Source: Paenibacillus sp. DCT19
GTDB lineage: Bacteria > Bacillota > Bacilli > Paenibacillales > Paenibacillaceae
Assembly: GCF_003268635.1 (NCBI RefSeq)
Contig: NZ_CP029639.1
Location: forward strand, 5,033,501-5,097,500
Direction: 5' to 3'
DNA: 64,000 nucleotides
This document shows, piece by piece, positions 6,221 to 63,453 of this stretch (positions within the stretch are counted from its first letter, which is position 1; every line of letters starts with the position of its first letter). The notes below the pieces were generated by a model. The model had not been told where the DNA came from, did not search any database, and saw only the letters and a program-made list of their open reading frames with translations. Both the position numbers and the translations under genes were made by a program.

Positions 6221-7572
6221 CCAAGCACCGTTACATTCCTATGACCGAGCAGGATCAGAGCGCTATGCTGGCAACAGTTGGTGTGAAAACGATCGAAGAC
6301 CTCTTCCGAGATATCCCGCAGGAGATTCGTTATCAGGGTGAGTTACCCGTATCCTCTCGGCTAGATGAATATGCACTTACGCGTCATATGTCCAAACAAG
6401 CTGGTGCCAATGCCAACTTCGAGACACACGCAAGTTTTCTTGGTGCAGGCATCTACGACCATCATATACCTTCTGTCATCAATCATGTGATCTCCCGTTC
6501 GGAATTCTATACTGCATATACACCGTACCAACCTGAAATTAGTCAGGGCGAGCTTCAAGCAATATTTGAGTTTCAATCATACATCTGCGAATTGACAGGC
6601 ATGGCCGTTGCCAATGCAAGTATGTATGACGGTGCGACCGCTTTTGCAGAAGCAGGGAATTTGGCAGCAGCAGCTACTCGCCGTAAACAATTGATCGTAT
6701 CTCGTACCGTTCATCCGGAAGCACGTCAGGTACTGAAAGCCTATGCTCATGGTCTAAGTCTGGATATCGTCGAGATCGGGTATCAAAATGGCGTAACTGA
6801 CTGGGATGCCTTACAAGCCGCCATCTCGGAAGAAACGGCTGCAGTCATGATTCAAAGCCCAAACTTCTTCGGTGCCGTTGAACCTATCCAGCAAGCAGCT
6901 GACCTAGCTCATGCACACAAAAGCCTGCTTGTAGTAAGTGCGAATCCACTTTCACTAGGATTGTTAGAGGCTCCTGGGAAGCTTGGCGCTGACATTGTTG
7001 TCGGTGACGCTCAACCTTTGGGGATCGCCGCATCTCTCGGCGGACCAACATGTGGATATTTTGCTGTATCACAGGCTCATATGCGCCGTATTCCTGGCCG
7101 AATTGTAGGTCAGACGACTGATCGTAACGGCAAACGTGGCTTCGTACTAACACTACAGGCACGCGAACAGCATATCCGCCGGGAAAAGGCGACGTCTAAC
7201 ATTTGTTCCAACCAAGCATTGCTTGCACTGAGCGCATCCGTATACATGTCTACAATGGGAAGACAGGGCATGATCGATGTAGCGGATCTCAATTTGCAGA
7301 AGAGTCATTATGCACTTGAAGTATTCAAAGCTATACCTGGTGTAAAAGCAACCTTCAACGCACCAACATTTAACGAGTTTGTCATTCAGTTGCCTGAAGG
7401 AACAAACGTCGATGCCCTGCAACTAGAGTTGCTGGATAAAGGTTTTATCGGTGGATACGAACTCGGTCGGGATTATCCCGAACTCGCTGGACATATGTTA
7501 CTCGCAGTAACGGAGCGACGCACCAAGGAAGAAATTGACGAATTCGCACGAGCATTGGAGGGATCGTTGTGA
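6217..7572 (+). CDS. gcvPA: Glycine dehydrogenase (decarboxylating) subunit 1
   Basis: N-terminal half-subunit of the two-part P protein, which decarboxylates glycine and loads the aminomethyl group onto GcvH. The 451 residues cover the expected length and conserved blocks: the N-terminal segment [14 protein letters not shown], the region [18 protein letters not shown] and the domain around [10 protein letters not shown]. The PLP lysine is in the partner subunit. The gene overlaps gcvT upstream and gcvPB downstream by four bases each. Since gcvPB is frameshifted as sequenced, this subunit would lack a full partner if the sequence were literally correct. Confidence 0.94.
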
Positions 7573-9133
7573 CTCAAGAAACGAAGACAGCAACAGGACA
7601 AACCGAGTTAGCGCATTCTAGTACATCGCCGCTAAGCACCGACACAGAATCAACGAGTTCAGCATCGACAGCATCTCCTGCTCCTGAGCAAACACTCATA
7701 TTTGAACTGAGCAGCCCTGGACGTGTGGCTTATTCCCTACCGGAATGTGATGTGCCTCGCCAAGATCCCGGAGCTTTGATTCCCCGGGAAATGCTGCGGG
7801 CAGAAGCGGCTGCGTTACCAGAAGTATTCGAAGTGGATGTGATTCGTCACTATACAGCTCTCTCCCGTCGTAACTTCGGTGTAGATAACGGGTTTTACCC
7901 GCTCGGCTCCTGCACGATGAAATACAATCCCAAAATCAATGAAGATGTTGCACGCTACAGTGGATTCGCCAAAATCCACCCATATCAGCATGAGTCTAGC
8001 ATTCAAGGTGCTCTTGAGCTGCTGTACACGCTGCAAAATGACCTTGCTGGTCTGACCGGCATGGATGCCGTGACTCTACAACCAGCTGCCGGCGCACATG
8101 GCGAATGGACGGGGCTCATGATGATTCGAGCCTACCATGAAAGTCGTGGTGAAGTACGTACCAAAGTCATCGTGCCTGATTCATCCCATGGTACAAATCC
8201 AGCTAGTGCAACAGTTGCCGGGTTCGAAACTGTAACCATTCCTTCCCGTGCTGATGGTCTTGTTGACCTGGATGCACTCCGCGGGCAGTGGGTAATGACA
8301 CGGCTGCATTAATGCTTACCAATCCTAATACGCTTGGTCTGTTCGAGAAGGATATCCAGGAGATTGCTTCCATTGTGCATGAGGCAGGCGGATTGTTGTA
8401 TTATGATGGTGCTAATTCCAATGCCATTATGGGCATTACCCGTCCGGGAGACATGGGCTTCGATGTCGTACATCTGAACTTGCACAAAACGATGAGTACC
8501 CCACATGGTGGTGGTGGCCCTGGTGCTGGCCCTGTCGGTGTGAAAAGCCGTCTCGTGCCGTACCTGCCTAAACCGATGGTAATCAAAAACGATCAAGGCC
8601 TTTATGCTCTGGATTATGAAGGCGATCAATCCATTGGACGTGTCAAAGCGTACTATGGCAACTTCGGTATCTTGGTACGTGCTTATGCTTACATGCGCAC
8701 ATATGGTCCTGAGGGACTGCGACGTGTATCCGAATGTGCTGTGCTTAATGCAAATTACATGATGGCACGTCTCGCACCTTATTACGAGATTCCATATCCA
8801 GGTGTATGTAAACATGAATTTGTGATGTCTGGTCGCGGGTTGAAGCAATATGGTGTTCGGACATTGGACGTTGCCAAACGGTTGCTTGATTTTGGCTATC
8901 ATCCACCAACTGTGTATTTCCCACTCAATGTGGAGGAATGCATCATGATTGAGCCTACCGAGACCGAAAGCAAAGAAACGCTTGATGGATTCATTGATAC
9001 GATGATCCGCATTGCGAAGGAAGCAGAAGAAACACCTGAATTAGTTCTTAACGCCCCTTACGGCACACCGGTAACTCGTCTGGACGAAACAACCGCTGCT
9101 CGTAAACCTGTATTGAACTGTGCTTGCAGTTAG
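7569..9133 (+). pseudogene. gcvPB: Glycine dehydrogenase (decarboxylating) subunit 2, frameshifted
   Basis: PLP-bearing half-subunit of the P protein. Two frames together give the whole gene: the first (GTG at 7569 to 8312) ends in [11 protein letters not shown], and the second picks up at once as [21 protein letters not shown] and runs to 9133. The PLP lysine lies in the second part ([14 protein letters not shown]). The total length is 3n+2, so one base is missing; one more G in the GGG at 8283-8285 restores DALRGAVGND and a 521-residue protein. I see no slippery heptamer suggesting programmed frameshifting. The start is GTG in a four-base overlap with gcvPA. About 40 residues at the N-terminus are Ser/Thr-rich and precede the usual beginning ([10 protein letters not shown]). 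Probably a sequencing deletion; a real mutation would inactivate glycine cleavage. Confidence 0.9.
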
Positions 9134-9200
9134 GACGTTCTTGAATCTTACTTGAATTTGTGTGTAATCACACTTGTGGGTATCTTCCCGTGAGCTTTGG

Positions 9201-9310
9201 GTGAGCTTTCTCAGTGAGTTTTCAGTGGCTTCTCAATGGCTTCCCAGTAGCTTCTCGGTAACTTCTCACTGTCTTTTCACTGTCTTTTCAGTGACTTCTC
9301 ACTGCCTTTC
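9201..9310 (+). repeat. Ten degenerate 11-bp tandem units
   Basis: Ten consecutive 11-base units fit without gaps: GTGAGCTTTCT, CAGTGAGTTTT, CAGTGGCTTCT, CAATGGCTTCC, CAGTAGCTTCT, CGGTAACTTCT, CACTGTCTTTT (twice), CAGTGACTTCT, CACTGCCTTTC. The approximate consensus is CAGTGRCTTCT. The period is close to one helical turn and is not a multiple of three. Confidence 0.85.
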
Positions 9311-9478
9311 CGCCATACTGCGTCTGCGTCACGATCTCTTGACGTAGCTGGTAGGTCTGTGGAAAAGTTCCTGGCTTGGAACGAAAATGTGGCACACTCT
9401 GCTGCTTACGGAACGATAATTTGGCAAAACCTACTTCTTTCGGGTTATAGAATGTACCCTGAGTAAATCATTGTTCTC

Positions 9479-9530
9479 ACAAAAGCTCTTGCGAGATCGA
9501 ACATCCGCAAGAGCTTTTGTGTTGCTTTTC
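9479..9530 (+). terminator. Terminator downstream of gcvPB
   Basis: Perfect 15-bp inverted repeat: ACAAAAGCTCTTGCG (9479-9493) pairs with CGCAAGAGCTTTTGT (9506-9520), 12-base loop, then GTTGCTTTTCTTTT. It lies 345 bp past the gcvPB stop, beyond the 11-bp array. Confidence 0.65.
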
Positions 9531-9550
9531 TTTTACGTGCGCCATTGTTG

Positions 9551-9667
9551 GTGCTCAATTGTTCTTCCCCTTCTCACGGTTACTATTGAGCCACTCTATT
9601 GCTTTCCCCTTCTTACGGTTACTATTGGTGCTGCTCAATTGTTTTTCCCTTCTTACGGTTACTATTG
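9551..9667 (+). repeat. Three direct repeats of about 39-40 bp
   Basis: The core ACGGTTACTATTG ends at 9588, 9627 and 9667, giving periods of 39 and 40 bases. Each is preceded by a TTCCCCTTCT-like tract, and copies 1 and 3 also share GCTCAATTGTT. Confidence 0.8.
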
Positions 9668-10078
9668 TTTAGCGCCACATTTCTGTTAAAACATTTCTTG
9701 AACTCAAGTAAACTGTAAAAAACTTTGGCGGAGTCTATAGTGCTGGAGTCTAGATTCGCTTACGAATCACATGGTGGCGTTCGTCGTAGTTGCCGAAACT
9801 TATATCGACTGATGCCTGTGACAGATAGCGCTGACCCAGAAGATGTTCTAAGGAATCCATGACACTTTATTTGGTCTCCAGGCTTACTTTTTCAATTCTT
9901 AGGAACACCAGACACGTTATTCCCCGAAATTCCCGCCATTATAATGAAAAACAGCTTATATTCTCTTATATAGCGTGTCACAGATTCTTTAGATTTCTGC
10001 GGGCGCTTCAAACCCCAGAATAAGGCGTCTCAGATTCTTTAGAGCTGAGAGCCTATTACTCACCTCCTAGTAGTTCAT

Positions 10079-10260
10079 GCTTGGAACCTAGAACTTGGAA
10101 CTTGCACTCAACACTTAGCACTTAGCTTTAACTCTTAACTATTCGCACTTTTGCTCTTAGCACTTGAACTTGCAGTTGGTTCTTGGTTCTTGGTTCTTGG
10201 TTCTCGGTTCTCGGAACTTAGCCTAGCTATCAGCACTTTTAACTCTTAGCACCTACTCCG
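10079..10260 (+). repeat. Heptamer repeat tract
   Basis: The strict core is TGGTTCT four times (10177-10204), then CGGTTCT and CGGAACT (to 10218). On both sides the sequence keeps a loose seven-base texture with words such as ACTTGGA, ACTTGCA, CTTAGCA, CTTAGCT and TTAACTC. Confidence 0.7.
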
Positions 10261-10351
10261 GCTCCTGCACTTGCACTTGGTCTTGCCATTAGCTCTCAAC
10301 ATTTACACTTAATTTTCAGCACCTGTCACTCTAGACCAGTTAGCTTGGCAC

Positions 10352-10380
10352 CTACATCTACATCTACATCTACATCTACA
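10352..10380 (+). repeat. CTACAT hexamer microsatellite
   Basis: Nearly five perfect copies of CTACAT in tandem. Confidence 0.9.
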
Positions 10381-10553
10381 CCGCACTTAGCTCTCTCCCT
10401 TACAAAAGGTAAAGTTTAGCTTATGAAGGACGCATTCCGTATTCATGCACTAAAGAGTCCCACCTCGCAATTTCAAGAATACAGTCCCCTTCAGTTTTCA
10501 GACTGAGGTTTAAATCCAGACTAACCTCCAACGCAACAATTCCCTGCTTAAAT

Positions 10554-10592
10554 CAAAAAAAGCCGGTATCCACTGGTTAAGTAGATACCGGC
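10554..10592 (-). terminator. Terminator of the pts operon
   Basis: Minus-strand stem GCCGGTATC/GATACCGGC (10592-10562) followed by eight T residues, 70 bp past the ptsI stop. Confidence 0.85.
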
Positions 10593-10662
10593 AACATGCT
10601 GCTAGTAGCAGCTTTAATCGGAAAAAGAAGACCTTTAAGCTCCGGAGGAAACCCCGGCAAAA

Positions 10663-12375
10663 TTACGCTTGAATGCTTTGAACCAATTCAACGACTTGTT
10701 CAGCCGTTTGCATATCCAATGCTTTTGCAGCCAATTCCTGCATGTCCGCACGGGACAATTTCGTGATTTGGCTACGTGCTGGCAGAATGGATGTTGCGCT
10801 CATGCTGAACTCATCGAGTCCAAGACCGAGCAGCAATGGAATAGCGGTTTCGTCTCCCGCCATTTCTCCACACATGCCAACCCATTTTCCTTCGCGGTGA
10901 GCTGCATCAATGACCATTTTAACCAAGCGCAAAATCGCAGGGTTGTATGGTTGATACAGGTAAGATACACGTTCGTTCATACGGTCAGCAGCCATCGTGT
11001 ATTGAATCAGATCGTTCGTTCCGATACTGAAGAAATCCACTTCTTTAGCAAACTGATCCGCGAGAACTGCAGTCGAAGGAATTTCGACCATGATTCCGAG
11101 TTGGATGCTGTCTGAAACAGCGATACCTTCAGCAACGAGCTTGTCCTTCTCTTCGAGCAGGACAGCTTTTGCTTCACGGAATTCACCCAGTGTTGCGATC
11201 ATTGGGAACATGACACGCAAGTTACCATGCACGCTTGCACGCAACAATGCACGCAATTGTGTACGGAAGATATCCAGGCGATCCAGACACAGACGAACTG
11301 CGCGGAAGCCGAGGAATGGGTTCATTTCTTTTGGCAGATCCAGGTATGGAAGCTCTTTATCTCCACCGATATCGAGTGTACGAACAACGACAGGTTTGCC
11401 TTCCATTTTTTCCAATACAGCTTTGTAAGCATTATACTGGATGTCCTCAGAAGGAAGTTTGTCTCTGCCCATGTACAAGAACTCAGTACGATAAAGACCT
11501 ACAGCTTCTCCACCGTTCTCTAGAACGCCAGCAACATCATTTGGAGTACCAATGTTTGCTGCGAGTTCCACATGAACGTTATCCACAGTTACGGTTGGCT
11601 CGTCACGCAGTTTTCTCCACTCCGCACGTTGTGCGTCATACTGCTCCTGTTTGGCGCGGTATTCAGCAACAACCTCGTCTGTAGGATTAACCAAGACATG
11701 ACCATCCAGCCCGTCCACAATAATCAGATCGCCTTGTTTCGCTTGAGCCAGAATGTCTTTTGTTCCAACGACAGCTGGGATTTCAAGCGAGCGCGCCATG
11801 ATTGCGGAGTGAGAAGTACGTCCACCAATGTTTGTTGCAAAACCTTTAACGAATTGGCGATTCAGTTGAGCCGTGTCGGAAGGAGTCAGATCCTCCGCAA
11901 GCACGATCACTTCTTCATTGATCTCAGCCGGACTCATGAAGTCGATACCAAGCAAGTGATTTAGCACACGTTTGGTAACGTCGCGCATATCTGCTGCACG
12001 TTCTTGAAGATATGCACTCTTCATGTTCTCGAACATGGAGATAAATTGAGATGCCGTTTCATTCAATGCATATTCTGCATTAATCATGTTATCGGCAATA
12101 CTAGCTTTAACCGGATCTATCAATTCCGGGTCATTCAGAATGAGCAAATGCGAAGCAAAAATCTCAGCTTTTTTCTCGCCAAGCTCTTGTAAAGTACGCT
12201 CTTTGATCGCCTCAAGCTCAGCCTGGGATTTACCCAGAGCTGAGTCGAGTTTCGCGATCTCTGCGTCAACGTCGTTAATTTGGCGTTTTTCTACAGAGTA
12301 ATCAGGATGCTCCAAGATAAACGCCTTGGCGATAGCAATACCCGCCGAAGCCGCGATCCCGGAAACATTAAGCAT
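10663..12375 (-). CDS. ptsI: Phosphoenolpyruvate-protein phosphotransferase (PTS enzyme I)
   Basis: Cytosolic first enzyme of the PTS; takes phosphate from PEP and passes it to HPr. The 570 residues match the family. The HPr-binding N-domain and phosphohistidine domain come first, with the active His189 in [13 protein letters not shown]; the PEP-binding TIM barrel follows, with conserved [23 protein letters not shown] and the active-site cysteine in GMCGEMAGD. The start overlaps the end of ptsH by eight bases, so the two are translationally coupled. A clear terminator follows. Confidence 0.96.
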
Positions 12376-12643
12376 TAATTTCGCCCAGCCCTTCGTTAAC
12401 CATAACGTCAGTCAAAGCTTGAAGCGCTTCTGCTTCGCCTTCACCTTCAACGATGATGCTGATTGTGTCACCTTGCTCCAAACCAAGGGAAAGAACGCCC
12501 AGGATGGATTTCAATGTTACTTTTTTACCGTTAGCTTCTGCAAAGGATTCTGCACCTTTGAATTTGTTTGCTGTATTTACCAAGGCTGTCGCCGGACGTG
12601 CGTGGATACCATCTTCGTCTGTAATTCTGAATGTTTGTTGCAT
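12368..12643 (-). CDS. ptsH: Phosphocarrier protein HPr
   Basis: Small PTS phosphocarrier between enzyme I and the sugar-specific EIIA domains, and with CcpA the corepressor for catabolite control. Residues seen: His14 in GIHARPA, the catalytic site, and Ser46 in [10 protein letters not shown], the HPr kinase site typical of low-GC Gram-positives. I place the start at ATG 12643 ([12 protein letters not shown]), which gives the normal length of 91 residues; an upstream in-frame start would add a non-homologous extension. The weak ribosome site is AAGTGAGATG. It sits between the ptsG remnant and ptsI. Confidence 0.95.
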
Positions 12644-12722
12644 TACAATCATCTCACTTTCGCAATTTGTTTTTTTAGGCATTGCATATATTTACACTTG
12701 CTTGCCATCATCGTAACACTTC

Positions 12723-13556
12723 TTATTTTATCTCAATGATTGGCTGATCGCCAATCTTCAGCACGCCACTCTTCTTGAGAGTGACTGTAGAGCCTATTGG
12801 CAGGTTGGTGAAAATGACTGGTGAGATAATCGATGGAGCGTTCGCTTTCACATACTCCAGATCGACTTCCATAATCGGCTGTCCTGCCGATACCAAGTCT
12901 CCTTCCTGAACAAGCACGTTGAGGCCAAGACCTTTCAGCTTCACCGTGTTAACACCTATATGAACAAGCACTTCCTTACCACCGTTAGACATAATGGCTA
13001 CGGCATGTTTGCTTGGAAATACATTAAACACTTTACCATACACAGGCGATGTTATCGTTCCATCATGTGGCAGAATTGCGAATCCGTCACCTGTCATTTT
13101 CTCGGCAAATACCGGATCAGGTACATTCGTAATATCCAGCAGCTCGCCATTAGCTGGCATGACGATATCTTCTGCAACAATACGTTCACCTTGCTCTCCT
13201 TGCGCCTTCTCTTCATCTGGCGTTGGCTTCACATCAGCAGCCGAATTTGGAACAAGTGTACGTCCTGCGATAATGTCTTGCATTTGAGATTTAATCGTAT
13301 CTGAACGTGTACCGAAGATGGCATGTACATTATTACCCACTTCTAGCACGCCAAATGCACCCAATTGCTTCAAACGATCTTTATTTACATTCGATTTCTC
13401 ATTCACTTCAATCCGCAAGCGAGTAATACATGCATCCAGATGTTTGATGTTTTGTTGTCCACCAAATGCAGCAAGAATATTATGCGGTAGGTCGTCTATC
13501 AAACCCGCACCTCCGCCCGCTGTAGTTTCCATGGTTACTTCTTCACATCCTGGCAT
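12723..13556 (-). CDS. ptsG: PTS glucose EIIBA portion of a truncated ptsG
   Basis: C-terminal two domains of the glucose permease. Residues about 20-95 are EIIB (phosphocysteine in LDACITRLRIEV; KQLGAFGVLEVG); about 125-277 are EIIA of the Crr type (GDGFAILP, active histidine in EVLVHIGVNTV). A full PtsG (EIICBA) is about 670-700 residues, so the membrane EIIC domain is absent from this frame. Upstream DNA still encodes scraps of EIIC (separate entry) but out of frame. ATG 13556 falls inside the EIIC-EIIB linker (FNLKMPGCEE) and has no ribosome site, so it may not be a real start. If expressed, the soluble EIIBA could still phosphorylate another EIIC. Confidence 0.85.
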   Translation of the reverse strand: MPGCEEVTMETTAGGGAGLIDDLPHNILAAFGGQQNIKHLDACITRLRIEVNEKSNVNKDRLKQLGAFGVLEVGNNVHAIFGTRSDTIKSQMQDIIAGRTLVPNSAADVKPTPDEEKAQGEQGERIVAEDIVMPANGELLDITNVPDPVFAEKMTGDGFAILPHDGTITSPVYGKVFNVFPSKHAVAIMSNGGKEVLVHIGVNTVKLKGLGLNVLVQEGDLVSAGQPIMEVDLEYVKANAPSIISPVIFTNLPIGSTVTLKKSGVLKIGDQPIIEIK

Positions 13557-13712
13557 CTTGAGATTGAATTGCGAATGATCACCCGGAGGCCAAACAAGAA
13601 CGAGAATTCTAGTGGTTCTGTGAATCCTGTCAGAATGAGGTCAGCGTTGCCGAACTCCATATGCCTGCTACGTACTTTTTGTACTCCAGTATTGGTGCGA
13701 GCAAGGGGACAC
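13557..13712 (-). pseudogene. ptsG: Degenerate remnant of the ptsG EIIC domain
   Basis: Minus-strand translation gives, in shifting frames, KKYVAGIWSSATLTSF, then LTGFTEPLEFSFLF, then GLRVIIR and FNLKMPGCEE. These are C-terminal EIIC pieces in the right order. One base is missing between the first two (near 13632) and one in the AA run near 13569. Between SFLF and GLRVI about 70 residues normally present are absent, and everything upstream of KKYV (some 300 residues, with start codon and ribosome site) is gone, the remnant beginning directly after the leader terminator. Real deletion or assembly collapse cannot be told apart here. Confidence 0.75.
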
Positions 13713-13808
13713 AAAAAAAGCATGAATTAATAAAGGAATCGAACTAACCTTTTCGGGTATAGCATACCCGGGTTAAGGTAAGAACAATCACACTTTAATA
13801 ACTCATGC
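13713..13808 (-). promoter_or_regulatory. GlcT-type antiterminator/terminator leader of ptsG
   Basis: On the minus strand the arm at 13808-13793 pairs over 16 bases, with two imperfect positions, with 13735-13720, followed by seven T residues: a terminator. Its large loop carries a second hairpin, CCCGGGTATGCTATACCCG, flanked by AACC and AAAAGG, in the position of the ribonucleic antiterminator (RAT) bound by GlcT in Bacillus. glcT is directly upstream. The leader is intact although the gene it controls has lost its start. Confidence 0.6.
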
Positions 13809-13864
13809 CTGATCGAGTCAGTAACACGTCGCTTATGTTATTCAATTGCTTGATTACGGAAATT

Positions 13865-13893
13865 ATTGTAGCATCACTTTAATTGCAGTGCAA
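13865..13893 (-). promoter_or_regulatory. Promoter of ptsG-ptsH-ptsI
   Basis: Minus-strand TTGCAC (13893-13888), 17-base spacer, then TACAAT (13870-13865) with an extended -10 TGC before it. It lies between glcT and the leader terminator. Confidence 0.6.
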
Positions 13894-13940
13894 GCCTTTA
13901 CAGGTAAATTCCCAAAAACTATTCCACATGTGGGAATATA

Positions 13941-14795
13941 TCACTTCTTCTCTTCTTCTTTCCTCTGATACAACCGCTGAAGATGAATGGTAAGATAACC
14001 CACTTCTGCTGGATACACAGGCAGATTCAGCCTTTTCTCCATCACTTTCGTCAGCTTCCATGCAAGCGAGTACATTTCAGGGTATTCCAACTTCAAAAGA
14101 GAATCCAATTTATGAAGCTCTTCGACTTTGTCTCCACGACGAATACGCTCTAGAGCAAACCGCAGATGCGTTAATAAACGGGAATAATCCAGCGATTCCG
14201 TTTCAAACGAGTAGTCCAATTGCTTCGAGACAAGGCTCACGAGATCCGTAATTAATTGAGAATGCTCTCGCACTTGGGATATGTTCTGGTTCGTCATAGC
14301 GCTATAGATATGAAGGGCAATAAACCCGATCTCATCCATCCCCAAATCAACGCCCAGCTTCTCTTTGATCAGACGAACTGCGTATTCACCCATACGATAT
14401 TCTTCCGGATAGATCTCGCGTGTTTCATACAAAAATGGATTTTGAATGACGATTCCCTGTTCCTTACGCTTCAAAGCAAAAGAAATATGATCAGTTAATG
14501 CAATATGGATATGCTCATTTAATGGAACATCCGTACGTTCAGCAATATACGTAATGACTTCGTTAATAATCTCGATCAACGCTTCATCCACTTGTGGAAG
14601 AAGCTGCTTGTACTGCTCTTGCTCCTGCTGATTCTTCAAAATGAACATTTTCTCCACAGCCATGAGTGGGATGTTGTCACTTGTTTTGCGGTTAAAGCCG
14701 ATGCCTTTACCAATGACGACGACTTCCCCATGTTCAGGATGCTGTGCAATGATTACATTATTGTTTAGCGCTTTATCTACATGCAGGCTGCTCAT
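13941..14795 (-). CDS. glcT: Transcription antiterminator GlcT (BglG family)
   Basis: RNA-binding antiterminator that, in the presence of glucose, prevents termination in the ptsG leader. The N-terminal RNA-binding domain (about residues 1-60, ALNNNVIIAQHPEHGEVVVIGKGIGF) is followed by two PRD domains, with conserved histidines in NEHIHIALTDHI, IALHIYSA, LLTHLRFALER and YLTIHLQRLY. ATG 14795 is preceded by AGAGGTG at proper spacing; the GTG nine bases upstream overlaps that ribosome site. The order glcT-ptsG-ptsH-ptsI is that of Bacillus subtilis, which supports GlcT over LicT or SacT. Confidence 0.9.
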   Translation of the reverse strand: MSSLHVDKALNNNVIIAQHPEHGEVVVIGKGIGFNRKTSDNIPLMAVEKMFILKNQQEQEQYKQLLPQVDEALIEIINEVITYIAERTDVPLNEHIHIALTDHISFALKRKEQGIVIQNPFLYETREIYPEEYRMGEYAVRLIKEKLGVDLGMDEIGFIALHIYSAMTNQNISQVREHSQLITDLVSLVSKQLDYSFETESLDYSRLLTHLRFALERIRRGDKVEELHKLDSLLKLEYPEMYSLAWKLTKVMEKRLNLPVYPAEVGYLTIHLQRLYQRKEEEKK

Positions 14796-14856
14796 TGTTT
14801 GCACCTCTTTTTTTCACACCATCTTGGGCATAATGAAGTCACACCCTGTTACAAAC

Positions 14857-14894
14857 GAAAAGACATCCGGAGCGGGCAAACCGCGCCGGACATC
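14857..14894 (-). terminator. Terminator after floT
   Basis: Minus-strand stem GATGTCCGGCGCGG with CCCGCTCCGGATGTC, loop TTTG, then TTTT. It lies between floT and glcT. Confidence 0.7.
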
Positions 14895-16510: not shown

Positions 16511-16565
16511 TCCACATCTCTCCCTTTAATCATTGATGAATGATTCATCTTACTTCTGTTCTTAC

Positions 16566-18646: not shown

Positions 18647-19233
18647 TTATAACAATCCGTTAATCTGCAAATGTGCGCGGAACATTTCACTGGAGGACGG
18701 CAAATCCTCCGATTGTGCCCAAGTTTCAGAATCCCACAACCCTGCCTGTTTAAACGCACGAGGACAATGGATAAAGCATTCTTCCACATCCACAATCACA
18801 GCCGCACCAATTGTCTTACCGTTCCAATTCATACTTCCGATAAATTCGGCATCCTTCGTAATAGAGGCTGTCCCGTTAATACGCAGCACTTCATTCATAC
18901 CTGGAATCAGGAAAAGCATACCTACCCTGGGTTAGATAATATGTTCATTAATGAGTCAATACGGCGATTGCCCGGACGTTCAGGATAAACCAAACGAAAT
19001 TGGTCTAATACTTTCACAAATCCTGCTTCATCGCCCCGAGGAGAAACATCGCTCTTCCCGTCTTGATCGGACGTGGATAAGAAAAACAAGGGTGACATGG
19101 ATACAAAATTCTGAACATGTGAATCTACATAGGAGATTGCCTTATTCCGTACATGTTCATGCGGTTCTCCTACCATGCTCTGCAATTCATTCGCGTCAGT
19201 AATCAATGGAATATTCAATGCCTGCTTTTCCAA
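18647..19233 (-). pseudogene. Pyridoxamine 5'-phosphate oxidase-family protein, frameshifted
   Basis: FMN-binding split-barrel protein of the PPOX family. Two adjacent frames form one protein: the first (19233-18922) ends RRIDSLMNILSNP and the second continues as VGMLFLIPGMNEVLRINGTA to 18647. Length is 3n+2; one extra base near 18927 restores LSNPRVGMLFLIPG and about 195 residues. Family signs are SPLFFLSTSDQDGKSDVSPRGDEAGFV and CFIHCPRAFKQAGLW. The physiological substrate is unknown. The single-base loss at a homopolymer resembles the others in this window and is probably a sequence error. Confidence 0.8.
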
Positions 19234-21022: not shown

Positions 21023-22011
21023 CTAGTTTTTCCCGTAGCCATTAGGGTGAGACTGGTGCCAGCCCAAGCGCTCTGAATGACATCTTCCAGGTTGGTACGT
21101 GTTGGGTTCCAGCCCAGCACGGTTCTTGCTTTAGCAGACGAAGCAACCAGAACTGCTGGGTCACCTGCACGACGTGGCTCTTGGACAACCGGAATATCCA
21201 ATCCAGTCACTTTCTTAGCTGTTTCGATGACTTGTTTAACTGAGAATCCTGTACCGTTACCAAGGTTAAACACGTTGCTGTTCTCGCCTTTACGAAGGTA
21301 ATCTACAGCCCGCAAATGCGCATCTGCCAGATCACTTACGTGAATGTAGTCACGGATACATGTTCCATCCTCAGTGTCATAATCGTCACCAAACACAGCG
21401 ATATGTGAACGTTGTTTCAGTGCTGTTTGCAACACGAGTGGAATCAAGTGACTTTCAGGTTGGTGATCTTCACCGATCTTGCCGCTGTCATGAGCGCCGG
21501 CTGCATTGAAGTAACGCAGGGATACATACTTGATATCCTGTACTTTATCGAACCAAGACATCATGCGCTCCATCATGAGCTTTGTTTCACCGTATACGTT
21601 GGTTGGTTCTGTACGGTCGCTCTCTTCGATTGGCACCTTCTCAGGCTCACCGTAGGTTGCTGCTGTAGAGGAGAATACAATTTTACGCACATTCGCTTCG
21701 TTCATAGCTTCCAGCAAGCACAATGTACCGAAGACATTGTTGTCATAGTATTTAACCGGAGCTGTCATGCTCTCGCCTACCAAAGAGTTCGCTGCAAAGT
21801 GAATAACTGCGTCAATCGAGTTCTCTGCGAACAGCTTCTTCAGAATTGCTTTGTCACGAAGATCCCCTTCATACAATTTACCGCCGAGCAATGCTTCGCG
21901 ATGCCCTGTTTGCAAGTTATCCAGAACAACAACCTCTTCACCACGTTCCAACAAAGCCGCTACCGTATGCGAACCAATATATCCTGCTCCACCTGTCACC
22001 AAAATTGCCAT
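21023..22011 (-). CDS. galE: UDP-glucose 4-epimerase, frameshifted near the C-terminus
   Basis: Interconverts UDP-galactose and UDP-glucose. The Rossmann NAD motif GGAGYIGSH is at residues 7-15; the catalytic Ser and Tyr are in FSSTAATYG and YGETKLMMER. The protein reads normally to EDVIQSAWA, then a missing base (near 21061, GGGCCTGG reduced to GGGCTGG) throws it into a foreign frame that runs about 50 codons into galT, to 20899. Restoring the base gives AWAWHQSHPNGYGKN and TAG at 21023-21025, a normal 329-residue GalE ending just before the galT ribosome site. The start lies one base after the galK stop. Confidence 0.9.
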
Positions 22012-28112: not shown

Positions 28113-28777
28113 CTATTCGGCTTTGGCCTTACGATAAGCGTCCATATATTGTTCCGCTTTGCGACGGACATGACTCAAGTCCCCGTTTTTACTGCTTCGG
28201 TCGTCAAGTCGGAACCAATTCCTACCGCTACCGCACCACCCTTGATCCAATCACCCAAGTTAGACAAAGAAACCCCACCTGTTGGCATAAAGTTCGCCTG
28301 CGGCATTGGGCCTTTCATTGTTTTGATAATTGAAGGATCATACAGATTACCTGGGAATAATTTCACAATATCAACGCCAAGTTCCAAAGCACGCTGAACA
28401 TCTGCAATCGTCATCACACCTGGCAAAATAGGGATACGATACAAGTTGCAGATCTGAACGGTATCTGGATTCAGAGATGGCCCAACGACGAATTCAGCAC
28501 CTGACATAATAGCTGCACGCGCTGTTTGGGGTTCTAGAACGGTGCCCGCACCAATAATGGCAAACTTCTCAGGATCCTGTGTATTCCAATGATAGACACG
28601 ACTTAATTTCTCAATCGCTTTGAGGGCACTGGGAACTGTCATGGTGATCTCAATGACTTTGATCCCACCAGCAATGGCTTGTTCCGCCATCGCGATAACT
28701 TGATCGGCAGAATCCGCACGCAGGACGGCAACGACGCCGTTGTCCGTTATTTTTTGCAGTAGCTGAAGCTTCTTCAT
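28113..28777 (-). CDS. kdgA: KDPG aldolase, frameshifted near the C-terminus
   Basis: 2-dehydro-3-deoxyphosphogluconate aldolase, which splits KDPG into pyruvate and glyceraldehyde-3-phosphate. Class I signs: GVVAVLRADSADQ, catalytic Glu in GIKVIEITMT, IGAGTVLEPQTA, Schiff-base Lys in DIVKLFPGN and MPTGGVSLSN. The literal frame stops at 28175 after TEAVKTGT. Adding one A to the A5 run at 28186-28190 gives EAVKNGDLSHVRRKAEQYM and a TAG at 28113, a normal 221-residue protein. Start is ATG 28777 after AAGGGAGAG. It is the second gene of kdgK-kdgA. Confidence 0.88.
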
Positions 28778-38213: not shown

Positions 38214-38278
38214 CGTGTTCACCCTTTTACGTTTTGGCATAGTATGCGCAAAGGATATGCATTTATCCAATAAATAAC

Positions 38279-53316: not shown

Positions 53317-54880
<1,564 letters not shown>

Positions 54881-54960
54881 AAACGCTCTTTATGATGTAC
54901 TGTAGGGCTGTTTGCACAGTCCTTCCTTCCTCATAAAGAAAGCCTTGTATCTCGATAAGA

Positions 54961-55002
54961 AAAGCCATCTTTCATGTATACCATGAAGGATGGCTTTTTT
55001 CC
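54961..55002. terminator. Terminator between mnmA and crcB
   Basis: AAAAGCCATCTTTCAT (54961-54976) pairs with ATGAAGGATGGCTTTT (54984-54999), then TT; it can serve both converging genes. Confidence 0.8.
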
Positions 55003-55065
55003 TGCTTTTTATTGCAAAAAAAATAAATTTTTCTATCTTGGCAACCCGACTGATTTTCCCGCTCG

Positions 55066-55422: not shown

Positions 55423-55817
55423 GAAGCACCTCCTGCCGACGATTTGCTGAGCATACGATGTCCAATTTTCATGCCAAGCCCACAGAGAAGCAGTCCTGCA
55501 ACCAAACTAACTAACAGGTATATGAGAGCTCTCTCCCATAGTCCTCCCTCGATCAACCGCACGATATCTAGACTGAACGTGGAAAATGTAGTGAACGCCC
55601 CTGTAAATCCAGTGCCGATTGCTAGGCGGAGTTGAGGTGTTATTTTACCCGGGACAGCAACGGTGAAGAACCATCCCAGGAACAAGCTGCCAAGCGCATT
55701 AATCAACAGCACCGCCCAAGGAAAACCTTCATTCGCTGCAGGCATCCAGACCTGTACTCCATACCGGGTAAGTGTTCCTACCAATCCACCACACGCCACA
55801 TATATGAATTCTTTCAT
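55419..55817 (-). CDS. crcB: Fluoride efflux transporter CrcB, first copy
   Basis: Fluc family protein of 132 residues with four hydrophobic segments; motifs GTLTRYGVQVWM, LLINALGSLFLGWFF and GTGFTGAFTTFSTFSLDIV. It starts three bases after the rarA stop, so it is read as part of a rarA-crcB-crcB unit. No fluoride riboswitch was found in front of the pair, where one would be expected if it had its own control. Confidence 0.92.
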   Translation of the reverse strand: MKEFIYVACGGLVGTLTRYGVQVWMPAANEGFPWAVLLINALGSLFLGWFFTVAVPGKITPQLRLAIGTGFTGAFTTFSTFSLDIVRLIEGGLWERALIYLLVSLVAGLLLCGLGMKIGHRMLSKSSAGGAS

Positions 55818-55819
55818 AA

Positions 55820-57127
55820 TTACAGATCTCTGCGTCGCTGTTGATTCAGCCGAATTTTCGATTCATTCCCCTGCTCTGTCGCTTCGTAAAATACACGGCG
55901 TGATAGTTGCTTAGGTAGGTATTCCTGCTTCACATAATGTCCTGGATAGTTATGCGGGTATTGATAACCTTCATGTCCAAGTTTGACTGCACCAGAGTAA
56001 TGCGTATCCCTCAAATGAAGAGGAACCTCTGCCGATTTCACTTCATCAATGGCATTCATCGCTTTGGATATGGCCGTATAAACCGCATTCGATTTAGGGC
56101 TCTCTACCGCGAATAGAATCGCTTGAGCAATGTTCAGCTTGGCTTCAGGCCATCCGTTGTTCCGGTATGCATCCAATGCGCCAATGGCTTGTGTCATCGC
56201 TTGTGGATTAGCAAGTCCAATGTCCTCACTGCTCGCTGCAATCAGGCGACGAATAAACGTCATCGGGTCCATGCCGAGCTTCTCCACTGCATATAAAAAC
56301 CAGAATAACGCCGCATCACTAGAACCACGAATACTCTTGTGGAAGGCAGATAACACATCATATTGCGTTGATTCATCCGCTTTTACGATGGGACGCCGAA
56401 TCGACTCCTCCGCTACACCAAGCGTAATATGAATCGTACCATCCTTCTCCGGTGGTGTCGTCAGGGCAGCCAGTTCAAGTGCATTTAACGCTCGGCGAAT
56501 ATCCCCATTAGCCATCGTAGCAATATGCTCCAACGCTTCCTCGTCTACCTGCAGCTCCATAAAGCCTAGCCCTTTGTCCGCATCCGCAAGCGCACGACGC
56601 ATCGCAATTAGAGAATGCTCCTTGTTCAAGGACTCTAACTGGAACAGGGTGGAACGACTCATTAAGGCTCCATTAACATAGTGAAAGGGATTCTCCGTCG
56701 TAGCTCCGATAAAAATAATGGTGCCTTTCTCAACTGCCGGAAGAAGAGCATCCTGTCTAGAGCTATTGAAGCGATGAACTTCGTCCAGAAACAGAATCGT
56801 TTTGGAACCATACAGCTGTTTGTTCGTCTGCGCCTGTTCGATCACTTCACGCACATCTTTGACAGAGGCATCCACTGCGTTAAGACGCACAAACTGCCCT
56901 TGTGTATGCTTGGAGATGATGTTGGCAAGAGTTGTTTTGCCACAGCCTGGAGGGCCGTATAATAAGATGGAGGAAATCTGATCCGCTTCGATTGCACGTC
57001 GCAGCAATTTCCCCTGTCCGATAATGTGTTCTTGTCCAATATATTCATCAAGCTGCTCTGGCCGCATCCGGTCAGCGAGCAGTCTTGCCTGTGGCTGTGA
57101 ATCTTGTTGAAATGAAAATAAATCCAT
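55820..57127 (-). CDS. rarA: Replication-associated recombination protein A (AAA+ ATPase)
   Basis: RarA/MgsA acts at stalled replication forks. The 435 residues are typical: [18 protein letters not shown] near the start, Walker [13 protein letters not shown] (about 58-69), Walker [13 protein letters not shown], sensor GATTENPF, and C-terminal MgsA domain with [14 protein letters not shown]. Position beside cymR agrees with Bacillus. The upstream LysR gene ends 18 bp before it on the same strand. Confidence 0.94.
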
Positions 57128-57145
57128 AACCTATCACTTCCTTAA

Positions 57146-58027
57146 CTAATGACCTCTACTCTCTATCATATCATACTCTTTCGGTAACAAATCCATAAAT
57201 GCACGTAGAGCACTACTCACAAAGGCATCTTTGCGAGTGATAAAATACGTCATCATATGACTCATACCCAAAGGAAGTGAATGTTTACGCAATAATCCTT
57301 GTTGCAAATGATGTCGAATTACAATTTCAGGTAACAATGAAATCCCCATACCTGAAGTCACCCCACTAATGATGGCTTCAAGCGTACCAAACTCCATAAT
57401 TACGGGACGATTAACACCATTGCTTCGTAGCCAGTCTTCTAAAATTTGACGGTAGGAGCACCCCATACTGTACACTAAAACAGGCTTCTCAACGAGTTCT
57501 TGATTCTCTGGACGAATGCCAGAGGATACAATAAATAATTCCTCTTCGTAGACGGGTACCCCGGAAAGATCAGGATGATCACATAAGCAGCTTATAAAAG
57601 CTCCTTCCAGTTCATATCCCAGCACCTGATCTATTAGATATTGTGAGTTGCCTGTGCTTAATGACAGGGAAACCGATGGATACAGCGTATAATAACTCGC
57701 AAACAGTTCTGGCAATCGTACAGCCGCAGCCGTCTGTGTAGAGCCTATTCGTAGCGGGCCTGTTGGCTCATTGGTGGCCCATAGTGCTTTCTCTGCCTCA
57801 TTCAGTAATCCGATAATCTTATCGGCATAGGTAAGCAACAACTCCCCCGCAGGAGATAATGTCATCCCCCGATTATGACGAATGAATAATAACGTACCGA
57901 CCTCGGCCTCCAGGTATTTGATTCTTGCTGTGACATTGGACTGCACATATCCCAGGCGCTCCGCTGCCTTGGTTAGATTGCCTTCCTGGGCTACAACTTG
58001 AAATATTCGTAGATCTCCGCTCTCCAT
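57146..58027 (-). CDS. LysR-family transcriptional regulator
   Basis: The 293 residues hold a winged helix at the N-terminus (LRIFQVVAQEGNLTKAAERLGYVQSNVTARIKYLEAE, about 6-40) and a LysR substrate-binding domain (about 90-290). It is divergent from an EamA-type exporter gene, the usual arrangement when the regulator controls the exporter. A 15-bp palindrome in the intergenic region is a good binding-site candidate. Effector unknown. Confidence 0.88.
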   Translation of the reverse strand: MESGDLRIFQVVAQEGNLTKAAERLGYVQSNVTARIKYLEAEVGTLLFIRHNRGMTLSPAGELLLTYADKIIGLLNEAEKALWATNEPTGPLRIGSTQTAAAVRLPELFASYYTLYPSVSLSLSTGNSQYLIDQVLGYELEGAFISCLCDHPDLSGVPVYEEELFIVSSGIRPENQELVEKPVLVYSMGCSYRQILEDWLRSNGVNRPVIMEFGTLEAIISGVTSGMGISLLPEIVIRHHLQQGLLRKHSLPLGMSHMMTYFITRKDAFVSSALRAFMDLLPKEYDMIESRGH

Positions 58028-58054
58028 ATGATCATCATATCCTCCTCACTTGAC

Positions 58055-58069
58055 ATCATTATTAATGAT
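58055..58069. promoter_or_regulatory. Palindrome, candidate LysR binding site
   Basis: ATCATTATTAATGAT is a perfect palindrome about a central T and contains the LysR T-N11-A motif. It lies 27 bp before the lysR gene and 128 bp before the EamA gene. Confidence 0.6.
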
Positions 58070-58197
58070 ACCAAGATCACTAACAATCATTATACAGCAT
58101 GACAGATCAGCCCTACAATTGAGGATATCAGGATACAGCACATAACCGTTGCTGGTCAGATTTTGTAACGTAATTCATTTAAAGGAGTACTTTTGGT

Positions 58198-59073
58198 ATG
58201 AAAACCGGACGATACACACTACTGATTATCATCACTACGTTCATTATGGGAACTTCATTTCCTGTTGGTAAAATAGGCATGCACTACGCTCCGCCCTTCT
58301 TGCTTATGGGACTGCGTTATATCCTAGCCAGCATCATAATGGTCTATATTGTGCGTAAACGCCCGCTGCCCGTAGGATGTCGACAATGGTTCCAGGTAGC
58401 CTTGATCGGACTATTCCAGTCCGCCGGTGTCATGGGCTGCGCGTACTACAGTATGAATTGGATCACTTCGGGAGAGTCAGCCATTCTGACCTTCACTAAT
58501 CCCCTACTGGTCATTCTATTCAGTGCAGTTTTATATGGGGTGAGCTACCGCTTGAGCCAGTGGGCTGGTGTGCTGCTAGGTTTTATAGGAGTTGTGTTAA
58601 CGTTTGGTCTGCAGCTGAGCGTAAGTCCTGGAACATGGATTGGTCTTGCCGGCTCCTTTTGTTTTGCCGTGTCCACATTACTGATTAAACGCTGGGGAGC
58701 TGCGCAGGATACATTTGTACTTACCGCATACCAAATGCTCGCTGGTGGCATAGCTCTCCTGATCTTAAGTGCTTGGACGGAAGAACCCCATTTTGTTCTA
58801 AATGTGACCTCTGTCTTTGTCCTGCTGTGGCTGGCACTCATCTGTTCGATCATTCAATTCTCACTCTGGTTCTATCTGCTACAACACAGTGATCCCGCCA
58901 AAACAAGTTCTTTCCTCTTCTTGGCTCCGTTCTTTGGTGTACTTTCAAGCTGGATTTTGCTATCCGAACGCATGGCGTGGATGATGGGTGTAGGTGGATC
59001 GTTCATCTGTATCGGTATTTATCTGGTCAATCGACGTCAACGTATGATACAGCTGAGTACAACGAATTCGTAA
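58198..59073 (+). CDS. EamA family (DMT superfamily) transporter
   Basis: Ten-helix drug/metabolite transporter of 291 residues made of two five-helix EamA repeats; seen in TSFPVGKIGMHYAPPFLLMGLRYIL (first repeat) and AKTSSFLFLAPFFGVLSSWILLSERMAW (second). Members export amino acids or metabolites. Start after AAAGGAGT. Divergent from the LysR regulator. Substrate cannot be read from the sequence. Confidence 0.88.
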   Translation: MKTGRYTLLIIITTFIMGTSFPVGKIGMHYAPPFLLMGLRYILASIIMVYIVRKRPLPVGCRQWFQVALIGLFQSAGVMGCAYYSMNWITSGESAILTFTNPLLVILFSAVLYGVSYRLSQWAGVLLGFIGVVLTFGLQLSVSPGTWIGLAGSFCFAVSTLLIKRWGAAQDTFVLTAYQMLAGGIALLILSAWTEEPHFVLNVTSVFVLLWLALICSIIQFSLWFYLLQHSDPAKTSSFLFLAPFFGVLSSWILLSERMAWMMGVGGSFICIGIYLVNRRQRMIQLSTTNS

Positions 59074-59192
59074 TAGCTGACATAAGTAGCTAGTACGAGT
59101 GGTCATACATGGGCTCTAAACGAACGGTCAGCACAAGTAGACAGTACGAATAAGTAATATGAGTAGGTAATACCAGTAACTTATACAAGTAC

Positions 59193-59227
59193 AAAAAAAG
59201 TCATGGGGCTCTCTAAGCACCATGACT
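59193..59227 (-). terminator. Terminator after helD
   Basis: Minus-strand AGTCATGG/CCATGACT stem (13-base loop) followed by seven T residues. Confidence 0.75.
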
Positions 59228-59266
59228 TGTCGCATTTATTTATCGATGAATCAATTTCATCTCGCT

Positions 59267-61444
59267 CTAAACTTCAGGCCACTGCTGAATCGATACCAGG
59301 TCACCGTCCGAATTATGCGTTGCAGAAGCATAAGCTGGTAGATCACCTTCATGAAACAGCCATAGCTCATGCAAGGCACGTGTACACCCTACATATAGCA
59401 ACTTCGCATCCCCTGCATTAGGCAGATAATGCGTCTGATCCACATCCGCCACAATGGCTGCATCAAACTCCAGCCCTTTGGACAAATACACAGGCAGGAC
59501 GGAGTGACCACCAGTATACTCTTTTTTGCCGCCATCAATCAGATTAAGCTCCCACCCCGCCTGCACTAAATCACGATGTAACTCCTTCGCTTCATGCAAG
59601 GTACGCGTTAGAATAGAAACTGTCCGATAATCCTTGACTGTGAGCAGCTTCAAAGCACGCTCTAGACTCGCAGTCCGCCCCTCACTACCATAAGGCAGTG
59701 TCCGGACAGGATCACCACTCCGAAACACAGGGATCGCTGTAATCCCACTCTTAACGCCCTGTTCCAGAATGGTATTCGCATAATCAATGATCTCCATTGT
59801 CGAACGATAACTACGTGTTAGTGCAAAATAAGCATTCTGCTCTGCTGGAAACAAAGAACTCATCTCTTCCCATGTGTGTACACCACGGTACTCATGAATG
59901 CCTTGCGAGAGATCGCCAAGAATCGTGAAGGAATGCCCTTTTACAAACAGATCCAGCAATGCCACGTGAAACGGGGAAAAATCCTGCGCTTCATCAATAA
60001 CGACGTGATCGAACCGATCATTGCCTTCGATATCATTAACCAACGTATGAATATAAACGAGCGCAGGCAAATCCTCTTCCCGCACACGATTTTCCTTCAG
60101 GTCTGCTGCCGTCTGCTTCATAACCATCTTCGGAATCGCTTGCTGTGCAGATGCTGGTACTGAACCACCTTTAATCACTTTGAACAATTGCTTATACAGC
60201 GTTAGCGGCTCATATTGCGGCCACTTTTTGGCATAAGCCTTTTCCCGGGTAGCTGCTTTCTTTTTGCGTTCCTTGCGTACAGCCTCCGGTGCAGGTTTTT
60301 TGAGTTCCATCTCAATCCAGCGATGAATACGTGCCATGACGCGTTCTTTTCGTTTGGCGAGTGGGTAGTGCTTGTATTCGTCTCCAAACCAACCCTCGAT
60401 CTCGGCTTTACTGAGCACTGCCCCATCCCATGGGCTGAAGTCCATATCTGGCACGGAATCCTCTTCCATCCCGGACAGCCATTCCTTAATCAGCTCCATG
60501 AAGCGGATCGATCCTTTGTAGCGCCCAGGAACATCATCATTCAGCTCAGGACGAGCGGCTGGTGTTTCGAACCATGTGTTTAATGTCTCCGCCGTATCTG
60601 CCAAAGGCATCTCTAGACCGAGCAGATTCATCGCCCAATCCGGGAAAGTTTGCTGCTGGATATCACCTACACCCAGTTCGGGCAGTACATCGGAGATGTA
60701 GTCAAGGAACATATGGTTCGGTGCAAAAATAACCATTTTCTCCGCAGATACCTGCTCCTTATATTGATACAGCAAGAAGGCAAGGCGGTGCAGGGCAACT
60801 GTTGTTTTTCCAGATCCAGCCACACCCTGGATAATCAAAGCGGTGTTTCTTGCCGCCCGAATGATCTGATCCTGCTCTGCCTGAATAGTAGAGACAATAT
60901 CACGAAGCTTGTTATCCTTGTTCTCACCCAACCGATACACGAGGAATTCATCCGATACGGCTGGCTGGTCGCTGTCGCGATTATACGTATCTGCCACACG
61001 CTCCAATATCCGCTGCCGAATGACAACGTTTCGTTTCAAGTACACTAGACCTTCAATAAGCCCTTCCGGGGCTTCATACGTAGCGGAGGCTTCACCTCCT
61101 GTAAAAGAGTAAAACAGACTCGCGACAGGAGCACGCCAATCGATGACGAGCGGATGCTCGCCCACCTCTTCGCGGTCTACGCCGATCTTGCCAATATACA
61201 GCGGTTTCCGTGCACCGCTGCCCTGCTCTTCGAAATCCAAGCGTCCGAAATAGGGTTGCTGCGCGCTCTTGGACAAGGCGGTGCGGCGCTCTTCGCGTCC
61301 CGCTTCCAACACTTGCTCTGTGAAGTCGTGGCCGGTATAGACCGGAACATTCCGCAGTCGTTCCAACTGACGATCCACTTCCTCCATCGTTCGCTCTAAC
61401 CTGTACTCTTCTTCTTGATAGGCACTTTGAAAGCTGTCTGACAT
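59267..61444 (-). CDS. helD: RNA polymerase recycling motor HelD (UvrD-like ATPase)
   Basis: HelD removes stalled RNA polymerase from DNA in Gram-positives. The 725 residues hold a coiled-coil N-terminal arm (about 1-60, that would enter the secondary channel), ATPase lobe 1 with Walker A VAGSGKTT (207-214), a middle insertion rich in Lys/Arg (about 395-420), Walker B HVVIDEAQDFS, and lobe 2 with TRSYRSTMEIIDYA and KGLEFDAAIVADVD. It is similar in length and layout to B. subtilis HelD. Start follows AGGAGGTAACTG. Confidence 0.9.
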   Translation of the reverse strand: MSDSFQSAYQEEEYRLERTMEEVDRQLERLRNVPVYTGHDFTEQVLEAGREERRTALSKSAQQPYFGRLDFEEQGSGARKPLYIGKIGVDREEVGEHPLVIDWRAPVASLFYSFTGGEASATYEAPEGLIEGLVYLKRNVVIRQRILERVADTYNRDSDQPAVSDEFLVYRLGENKDNKLRDIVSTIQAEQDQIIRAARNTALIIQGVAGSGKTTVALHRLAFLLYQYKEQVSAEKMVIFAPNHMFLDYISDVLPELGVGDIQQQTFPDWAMNLLGLEMPLADTAETLNTWFETPAARPELNDDVPGRYKGSIRFMELIKEWLSGMEEDSVPDMDFSPWDGAVLSKAEIEGWFGDEYKHYPLAKRKERVMARIHRWIEMELKKPAPEAVRKERKKKAATREKAYAKKWPQYEPLTLYKQLFKVIKGGSVPASAQQAIPKMVMKQTAADLKENRVREEDLPALVYIHTLVNDIEGNDRFDHVVIDEAQDFSPFHVALLDLFVKGHSFTILGDLSQGIHEYRGVHTWEEMSSLFPAEQNAYFALTRSYRSTMEIIDYANTILEQGVKSGITAIPVFRSGDPVRTLPYGSEGRTASLERALKLLTVKDYRTVSILTRTLHEAKELHRDLVQAGWELNLIDGGKKEYTGGHSVLPVYLSKGLEFDAAIVADVDQTHYLPNAGDAKLLYVGCTRALHELWLFHEGDLPAYASATHNSDGDLVSIQQWPEV

Positions 61445-61566
61445 GTTTCAGTTACCTCCTAAGAATATGTTTGCTCTGCATAGCCAATCACTGACCACGC
61501 AAAAGGATACCCAATATATCACATTGATCTGCAAAAAGCTACAGGCACACCCCATACCAGCAAACT

Positions 61567-61609
61567 AAAAACCGCTGTTCTCGTTTGTAAGAAACGAAAG
61601 AACAACGGT
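61567..61609 (-). terminator. Terminator after the ABC exporter gene
   Basis: Imperfect long stem (CACCGTTGTTCT with AGAACAGCGGT, inner CGTTT/AAACG) followed on the minus strand by TTTTTAG. Confidence 0.6.
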
Positions 61610-61672
61610 GTATAGCTTCAGCTTGTTGAATATCTGTGGTGAAATACGCACAACTGTACCTGTAATTAGAAA

Positions 61673-63453
61673 TTAATTATTCTGACCTTCCTGAGCCACA
61701 AACTGTTTCTGAGCCAGCTCACGGTACACCGGATGATTGCTGATCAATTCCGCATGTGTTCCTGTTCCAGTCACATGTCCATGCTCCAACACAACAATCT
61801 GATCCGAATCGACGACCGTAGACAACCGGTGTGCAATCACAATCGTAGTTCTTCCCTCCATAAGATTGGACAAGGCCTGTTGAACTTCATGTTCTGAGGT
61901 ACTATCCAAGCTGGATGTCGCTTCATCCAACATGAGAATATCCGGGCTGCGGAGCAGTGCACGAGCAATAGCGATCCGTTGACGCTGGCCCCCAGATAAC
62001 TTGATACCCCTTTCGCCCACTTCTGTCTCATAACCCTGAGGTAGCTTGTCGATGAAGTCAGCCGAATACGCCATCTCCGCAGCCCGCCTGATCTCATCCA
62101 TCGTAACCTCACGAGTCAAGCCGTATGTAATGTTGTCCTTGACCGTACCAGCCATGAGCGGACTTTCCTGTGATACATACCCGATCTTGCCCCGCCAAGA
62201 GGATAAAGAATACTCCGAAATCTGTTGTCCACCATACGAAATGTGACCTGAATCCGGCATATAGAACTGCTCCAATAAGGAGAACAACGTCGATTTACCA
62301 CTCCCACTTGGTCCAACAATAGCCGTTACCTTCCGTGTAGGAACCGTTAGATCAATTCCATGTAGCACTTCTTCCCCTGTGACATAGGAAAAATGCACAT
62401 TGTGAAATTCAATGGTTTCATTCCCCTTAGGCGCTACCTTTGTGCTGTGGTTCTGTTCTTCTTCATCGGCAAGAATAGCCTGAATGCGTTCCGTTGCTCC
62501 GACTACCTTTTGCAAACGAGAATATAATGTCGTGAACTGTCCCATAGGCATGATGACTTGGAACAAGAGCAGTATGAAAGCTACCAGCTCTCCTGGCGAC
62601 AGAATACCAGACGCTACGCGCATTCCCCCAACACCTAGAATAACGACCAACACAGCCGTCATGACAAATGAAAACAACGGACCGATCAGAGCCAGAATGC
62701 GTGCTTCCTGCAAACCAAAAGCAAACATTTTGCGAATCCGGGAATCTCCTGCTTCTGCCTCCTGTTTCTCCGTACCATAGGCTTTAACCAATCGAATCTC
62801 GCCAATCACTTGGCTAAGTACCGACGTCAGACCCGCCATCTCATCCTGCTGTTTCTTGGAGATCTTGTACATCTTCTTCCCAACCGGTAACAAAATTAAT
62901 AACGTAAGTGGCACAAGACTTAGGATAATGAGCGACATCACCCAATCCAGATAAAATAACAACGCCACCCCACCAATAACGGCAATGATATTAGATACAA
63001 ACGATACAAGATAATCCGCAATTAAAGTCATGATCTGACTTGTATCATTGGTGATCCGACTCATCGTATCCCCGGTGCGATTGCGGTCAAAATACGGCAT
63101 TCGTAGAGATAACACCTTGTTCCATAGCTTGGTTCGCAATGTTGCGACCACTCGTTGCCCTGCATAATTCAACATATAAATACTGATGCCCGAAGCAATG
63201 GCCTGAATGACAAATGCCCCAACCAATAACATAATAATGGACTTATCCAGTGCGGAAGTCGTCAGTCCATCGATCAGACCCTTGGTCATCAGAGGCACAA
63301 TCAGTCCGGCTGTAGTCTGAATCAAAGTCAAAATGAGAGCCAGAACCAGAATTAATTTGGGTGGATTCGTGGAAGCGATGAGCTTAACGAAATCCTTAAA
63401 TCCTTTTTTCCAACCTTAGGCTCATTCAATTCTTGTTGTTGCTGCTCTTCCAT
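61673..63453 (-). CDS. ABC transporter, permease and ATP-binding protein, frameshifted near the N-terminus
   Basis: Half-type ABC exporter (multidrug/lipid class, BmrA-like): six-helix membrane domain (about residues 20-330), then the ATPase with Walker A GPSGSGKST, signature LSGGQRQRIAIARAL, Walker B ILMLDEATSS and a switch His in VIAHRLST. The literal frame opens only at 63331. Upstream sequence encodes MEEQQQQELNEPKVGK and, after one added base in the T6 run at 63404-63409, GFKDFVKLIASTNPPK, which joins the main frame. The restored gene starts at ATG 63453 behind GGGAGG, giving 593 residues. Substrate unknown. Confidence 0.88.

Follow-up and report, generated by a model that had tools for sequence, protein, structure and literature searches.

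Five genes in the 64,000-nucleotide stretch of the Paenibacillus sp. DCT19 genome analysed here (the window) look broken by the dropping of single letters, which is most likely an artefact rather than biology. From comparison with related genomes, it is very probable that the one-base losses in these genes are uncorrected consensus errors of the assembly, and that the cell most likely has intact copies; ptsG, in the same window, is a separate case. The same fault occurs in every region that we sampled, even in essential genes, and it is therefore read as an artefact and not as biology. Bases would have been under-called, mainly in runs of G or C, and then left uncorrected in the consensus. We infer that base calling or consensus building is the likely cause, in which case the cell's own DNA would have the extra bases. 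This is an ordinary data-quality artefact in which nothing novel was seen, and the five genes are not to be called pseudogenes.

Genomes, regions and scans

The window covers bases 5,033,501–5,097,500 of a single-contig genome of 6,667,063 bases. It was compared with 28 other genomes, among which the top match was Paenibacillus tundrae (G013; 91% over gcvPB), collinear with the window at an identity of about 91–97% by block. Paenibacillus sp. Root52 (G029) was the second close relative, and two genomes of the same genus, G016 and G002 (about 71–89% identity by block in the window), were the outgroups. The sample consisted of one region of 137.5 kb, which takes in the window and its flanks, plus ten other regions of 20 to 40 kb, each set against its P. 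tundrae counterpart. These 11 regions make up 497.5 kb, or 7.5% of the genome, and 436.8 kb of them could be aligned.

The main scan, with P. tundrae as the reference, covered 313 conserved genes (345,228 bp) in the 11 regions. Its filter kept genes of at least 100 aa that were at least 80% aligned and had at least 5 substitutions, at least 60% of them at third codon positions, and it dropped indels within 30 bp of another indel or within 18 bp of the end of the open reading frame (ORF). The pair of losses in ptsG is excluded by this filter. Alongside it stand a looser scan of eight regions and, also over eight regions, a run test that followed homopolymer runs of P. tundrae with conserved flanks. 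Counts of indels in the relative's ORFs whose length is not a multiple of three were set aside, as doubtful ORFs and indel clusters were mixed into them.

Five split genes in the window

The five genes and their lesions are as follows.

7569–9133 (1565 b), plus strand: gcvPB, glycine dehydrogenase subunit 2; one-base loss at 8282–8285
18647–19233 (587 b), minus strand: PPOX-type flavoprotein gene; one-base loss at 18925
21023–22011 (989 b), minus strand: galE; one-base loss at 21062, near the 3' end
28113–28777 (665 b), minus strand: kdgA/eda, KDPG aldolase; one-base loss at 28180, near the 3' end
61673–63453 (1781 b), minus strand: MsbA-like ABC exporter gene; one-base loss at about 63401, near the 5' end

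All five lengths, from start to stop, are of the form 3n+2, just as the initial annotation of this DNA had stated. It had also reported seven one-base losses in all, two of them in a ptsG remnant, and had named comparison with Paenibacillus relatives as a check beforehand. That comparison bears the claim out: at each of the seven sites every aligned relative has one base more, within 14 bases of the place originally named. In order along the window the longer relatives number 14 of 14, 4 of 4, 4 of 4, 4 of 4, 30 of 30, 30 of 30 and 3 of 3, some genomes having been entered under two ids so that these rows are not all independent. The gaps themselves align at 8282, 13568, about 13632, 18925, 21062, 28180 and 63401, at most 8 bases from the positions first given.

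The further claim that the losses sit at homopolymers holds for three of the genes and less well for the other two. The G run in gcvPB (14/14 aligned relatives longer) and the C runs in galE and kdgA (30/30 each) are plain runs, shorter by one than in the two nearest relatives. The PPOX site (4/4) is less clean, the relatives having a different base beside the C's, and at the ABC exporter site (3/3) both a C run and a T run differ.

Apart from its single isolated lesion in the filtered scan, each of the five genes is full length. In the relative, the corresponding proteins match these families: gcvPB, a full-length GcvPB, the NCBIfam profile NF003346, the PPOX gene TIGR04025, galE TIGR01179 (GalE), and kdgA NF005119/TIGR01182; the relative's exporter scores best with MsbA-related ABC models, below their cut-offs. 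Substitutions in gcvPB fall 13, 14 and 116 on codon positions 1, 2 and 3, which places 116 of 143 at the third position, and the corresponding third-position counts are 52/63 in the PPOX gene, 36/44 in galE, 9/11 in kdgA and 109/124 in the exporter gene. With substitution dominated by third positions and one lesion each, no relaxed constraint and no further lesions were found in the five genes.

The filtered scan of the window found no isolated one-base loss beyond these genes and no gain. Within the window the looser scan adds differences that fall in ORFs either short or doubtful, including a one-base gain at 53667. Two other one-base differences lie around gene starts: the one at 38247 is apparently upstream of the gene's likely start, as judged by eye, and the one at 14808 is just 5' of a start codon.

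Losses and gains across the sampled regions

The bias toward loss extends far beyond the window. Of the 313 conserved genes, 46 carry isolated one-base losses in the filtered scan, 49 losses in all, against 5 gains relative to P. tundrae (p = 4e-10), so that the one-sidedness noted in the initial annotation is well above chance. The five gains that passed the filter do count against a purely one-sided loss. Outside the window's own region there are 35 losses and 4 gains (p = 3e-7), and losses were found in all 11 regions, with 1 to 14 in each. Scored by the position of the gap, 37 of these losses lie in or next to a G or C run of at least three bases. On average there is about one loss in every 7 kb of the coding sequence that passed the filter.

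Under the same filter in the window region, 89 genes of this genome could be set against Root52 and show 15 losses and 1 gain. Root52 against P. tundrae gives neither a loss nor a gain in 96 genes, and the reverse comparison 2 and 0 in 94; between the outgroups there are 0 losses and 2 gains in 46 genes for G016 against G002, and 2 and 1 in 48 for the reverse. When this genome is made the reference, again with the same filter, P. tundrae has 1 loss and 25 gains. Some results of the looser scan count against the explanation: in its eight regions, ORFs of this genome are broken not just by 36 one-base losses but also by 7 gains, and those of P. tundrae by 7 losses and 6 gains.

Outside ORFs of 100 aa the looser scan found no overall bias in the eight regions (68 losses and 76 gains). 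Ordinary indel divergence dominates outside genes, and the fault is visible there only in G/C runs. Transporters matching PF00528 were considered as a gauge for the whole genome and dropped as uninformative, since they covered at most 150 matches per genome and, of these, just the best rows; among the matches listed for this genome, almost all lie in long open frames, a point against the explanation by error, and one frame is clearly shortened (224 aa, against 285 in the relative).

Two observations come from beyond the right end of the window. A single gene of 432 aa carries three one-base losses, at 5,097,626, 5,097,861 and 5,098,270. Near a gene end at about 5,124,193, this genome has 44 bp inserted that P. 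tundrae lacks, and within them is a 33-bp stretch that can form a hairpin; it is not a repeat family, being present in a single copy in this genome and having no copy in P. tundrae or G016 with up to 2 mismatches allowed.

Run length and coding status

The run test shows how the losses depend on run length. G/C runs are one base shorter in this genome in 6 of 2110 cases at length 3, 16 of 91 at length 5 and 3 of 7 at length 6; at length 4 the figure is just 5 of 410, which counts against the explanation by under-called runs, and overall the rate of shortening rises with run length. Runs one base longer number 0, 1, 0 and 0 at lengths 3 to 6. Between Root52 and P. tundrae, in the window region, no G/C run of these lengths is shortened (0/977, 0/177, 0/38 and 0/2). 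A/T runs of 2 to 6 bases have 17 losses and 21 gains. Among A/T runs of 7–8 bases, 7 of 49 are shorter and 0 longer, with a background between the relatives that rests on too few runs for an excess to be called.

Taking all 11 regions together, 23 of 109 G/C runs of at least five bases are one shorter and 0 are longer, compared with 0 of 40 between relatives. In coding sequence 14 of 73 such runs are shortened, and in non-coding sequence the figure is 9 of 36 (Fisher p = 0.62). The two are alike, and thus no filtering by selection is visible.

Essential genes, repair genes and the alternative explanations

Losses also occur in pheT (phenylalanyl-tRNA synthetase beta; genome positions 1,975,405–1,977,851) and rplB (ribosomal protein L2; 5,764,335–5,765,152), both indispensable in bacteria. 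Each is single-copy in this genome, each is split into two frames by one-base losses, and both are intact in all three relatives P. tundrae, G016 and G002. Since no living cell could carry both lesions, at least these two have to be errors, and in kind they do not differ from the other losses. With these two genes split, gene decay and a mutator strain are both poor fits.

The mutator reading deserves some attention nonetheless, as mutL (near 2,891,260 of the genome) and mutS2 (near 1,982,670) each have their frame broken by a one-base loss, and the length-dependent shortening of G/C runs resembles slippage. The losses would then be real mutations in a strain deficient in mismatch repair, a possibility that we consider very slight. 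The repair genes alone do not decide against it, because mutL and mutS2 are themselves among the split genes; in mutS a long frame is open (940 aa, against 958 in the relative). The evidence against it comes from elsewhere: the essential single-copy pheT and rplB were not spared, G/C runs shorten alike inside and outside genes as if unfiltered by selection, A/T runs of 7–8 bases do not clearly exceed what is seen between relatives, and among G/C runs of 3 to 6 bases a single gain was counted. The splits in mutL and mutS2 are probably the same artefact. It is most doubtful that the strain is a true mutL-defective mutator in which G/C runs have contracted genome-wide and part of the frameshifts are real in the cell.

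Ordinary decay, which would make the five genes pseudogenes in the strain, can point to ptsG in the same window with its two large deletions. The five genes, however, are otherwise full length with third-position-dominated substitution, and decay would not be one-sided, tied to G/C runs and present in rplB and pheT; we find this account barely credible. A chance close to nil is left to programmed frameshifting or transcript slippage, by which the frame would be restored and the losses, though real, would be harmless. The sequence comparisons gave nothing in its favour. Losses hit as many as 46 different genes within the sampled 7.5% of the genome and lie for the most part at short C/G runs, and at the window's sites the loss is shared by no aligned relative. 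Uncorrected consensus error is thus the reading that we prefer for the five genes.

The separate case of ptsG

The glucose PTS permease gene, ptsG, is present in the window as two remnants.

12723–13587, minus strand: 3' part of ptsG, presumably the IIB/IIA side; one-base loss at 13568
13588–13695, minus strand: remnant of the ptsG membrane domain, between two large deletions; one-base loss near 13632

At both 13569 and 13632 all 4 of the 4 aligned relatives have the additional base. Compared with the full-length copies of P. tundrae and Root52, the BLAST pieces show the gene, as deposited, to be without about 200 bp and about 920 bp of its membrane domain, with a piece of about 105 bp left between both deletions. 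The EIIC match of the relative's ptsG (311.7 bits) has no counterpart here, where the best EIIC match in the genome reaches 181.4 bits.

In the 3' part, substitutions relative to the relative fall 10, 16 and 36 on the three codon positions, so that 26 of 62 are at positions 1 and 2. This mix is uninformative on constraint, because two relatives with full-length ptsG show a similar one in the same part (5, 4 and 13, or 9 of 22 at positions 1 and 2). Given the large deletions, the pair of small losses is not clean evidence for error; either decay or error may explain it. Two claims of the initial annotation are narrowed by this gene. That the lesions reflect sequencing error and not gene decay is supported for the five full-length genes, but not cleanly for the ptsG pair. 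Likewise, that none of the changes is an expansion is true of the five genes, whereas in the ptsG remnant it depends on the alignment: near 13657–13662 BLAST places a gain and a loss where MAFFT places substitutions.

Consequences and comparison with known systems

Surveys that infer gene loss from this sequence would be inflated by many false pseudogenes. If the sampled rate of 49 losses per 436.8 kb held throughout, extrapolation would give some 700 to 800 losses in the 6.67-Mb genome. Split single-copy essential genes, combined with G/C runs that shorten equally within genes and between them, would also point to a faulty consensus without the reads.

It is worth placing these losses beside two familiar situations. 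Mutators deficient in mismatch repair undergo single-base changes that depend on run length, and this genome resembles them in that dependence and in the split mutL of its deposited sequence. It differs from them in that pheT and rplB are hit, no filter by selection is visible, and gains in G/C runs are nearly absent. In uncorrected long-read assemblies, one-sided single-base losses at homopolymers truncate conserved genes genome-wide. The DCT19 sequence shares with such assemblies the one-sided single-base losses and the truncation of conserved genes across the genome, and differs from them in that its losses fall mostly in G/C runs, with about one to every 7 kb of coding sequence after filtering.
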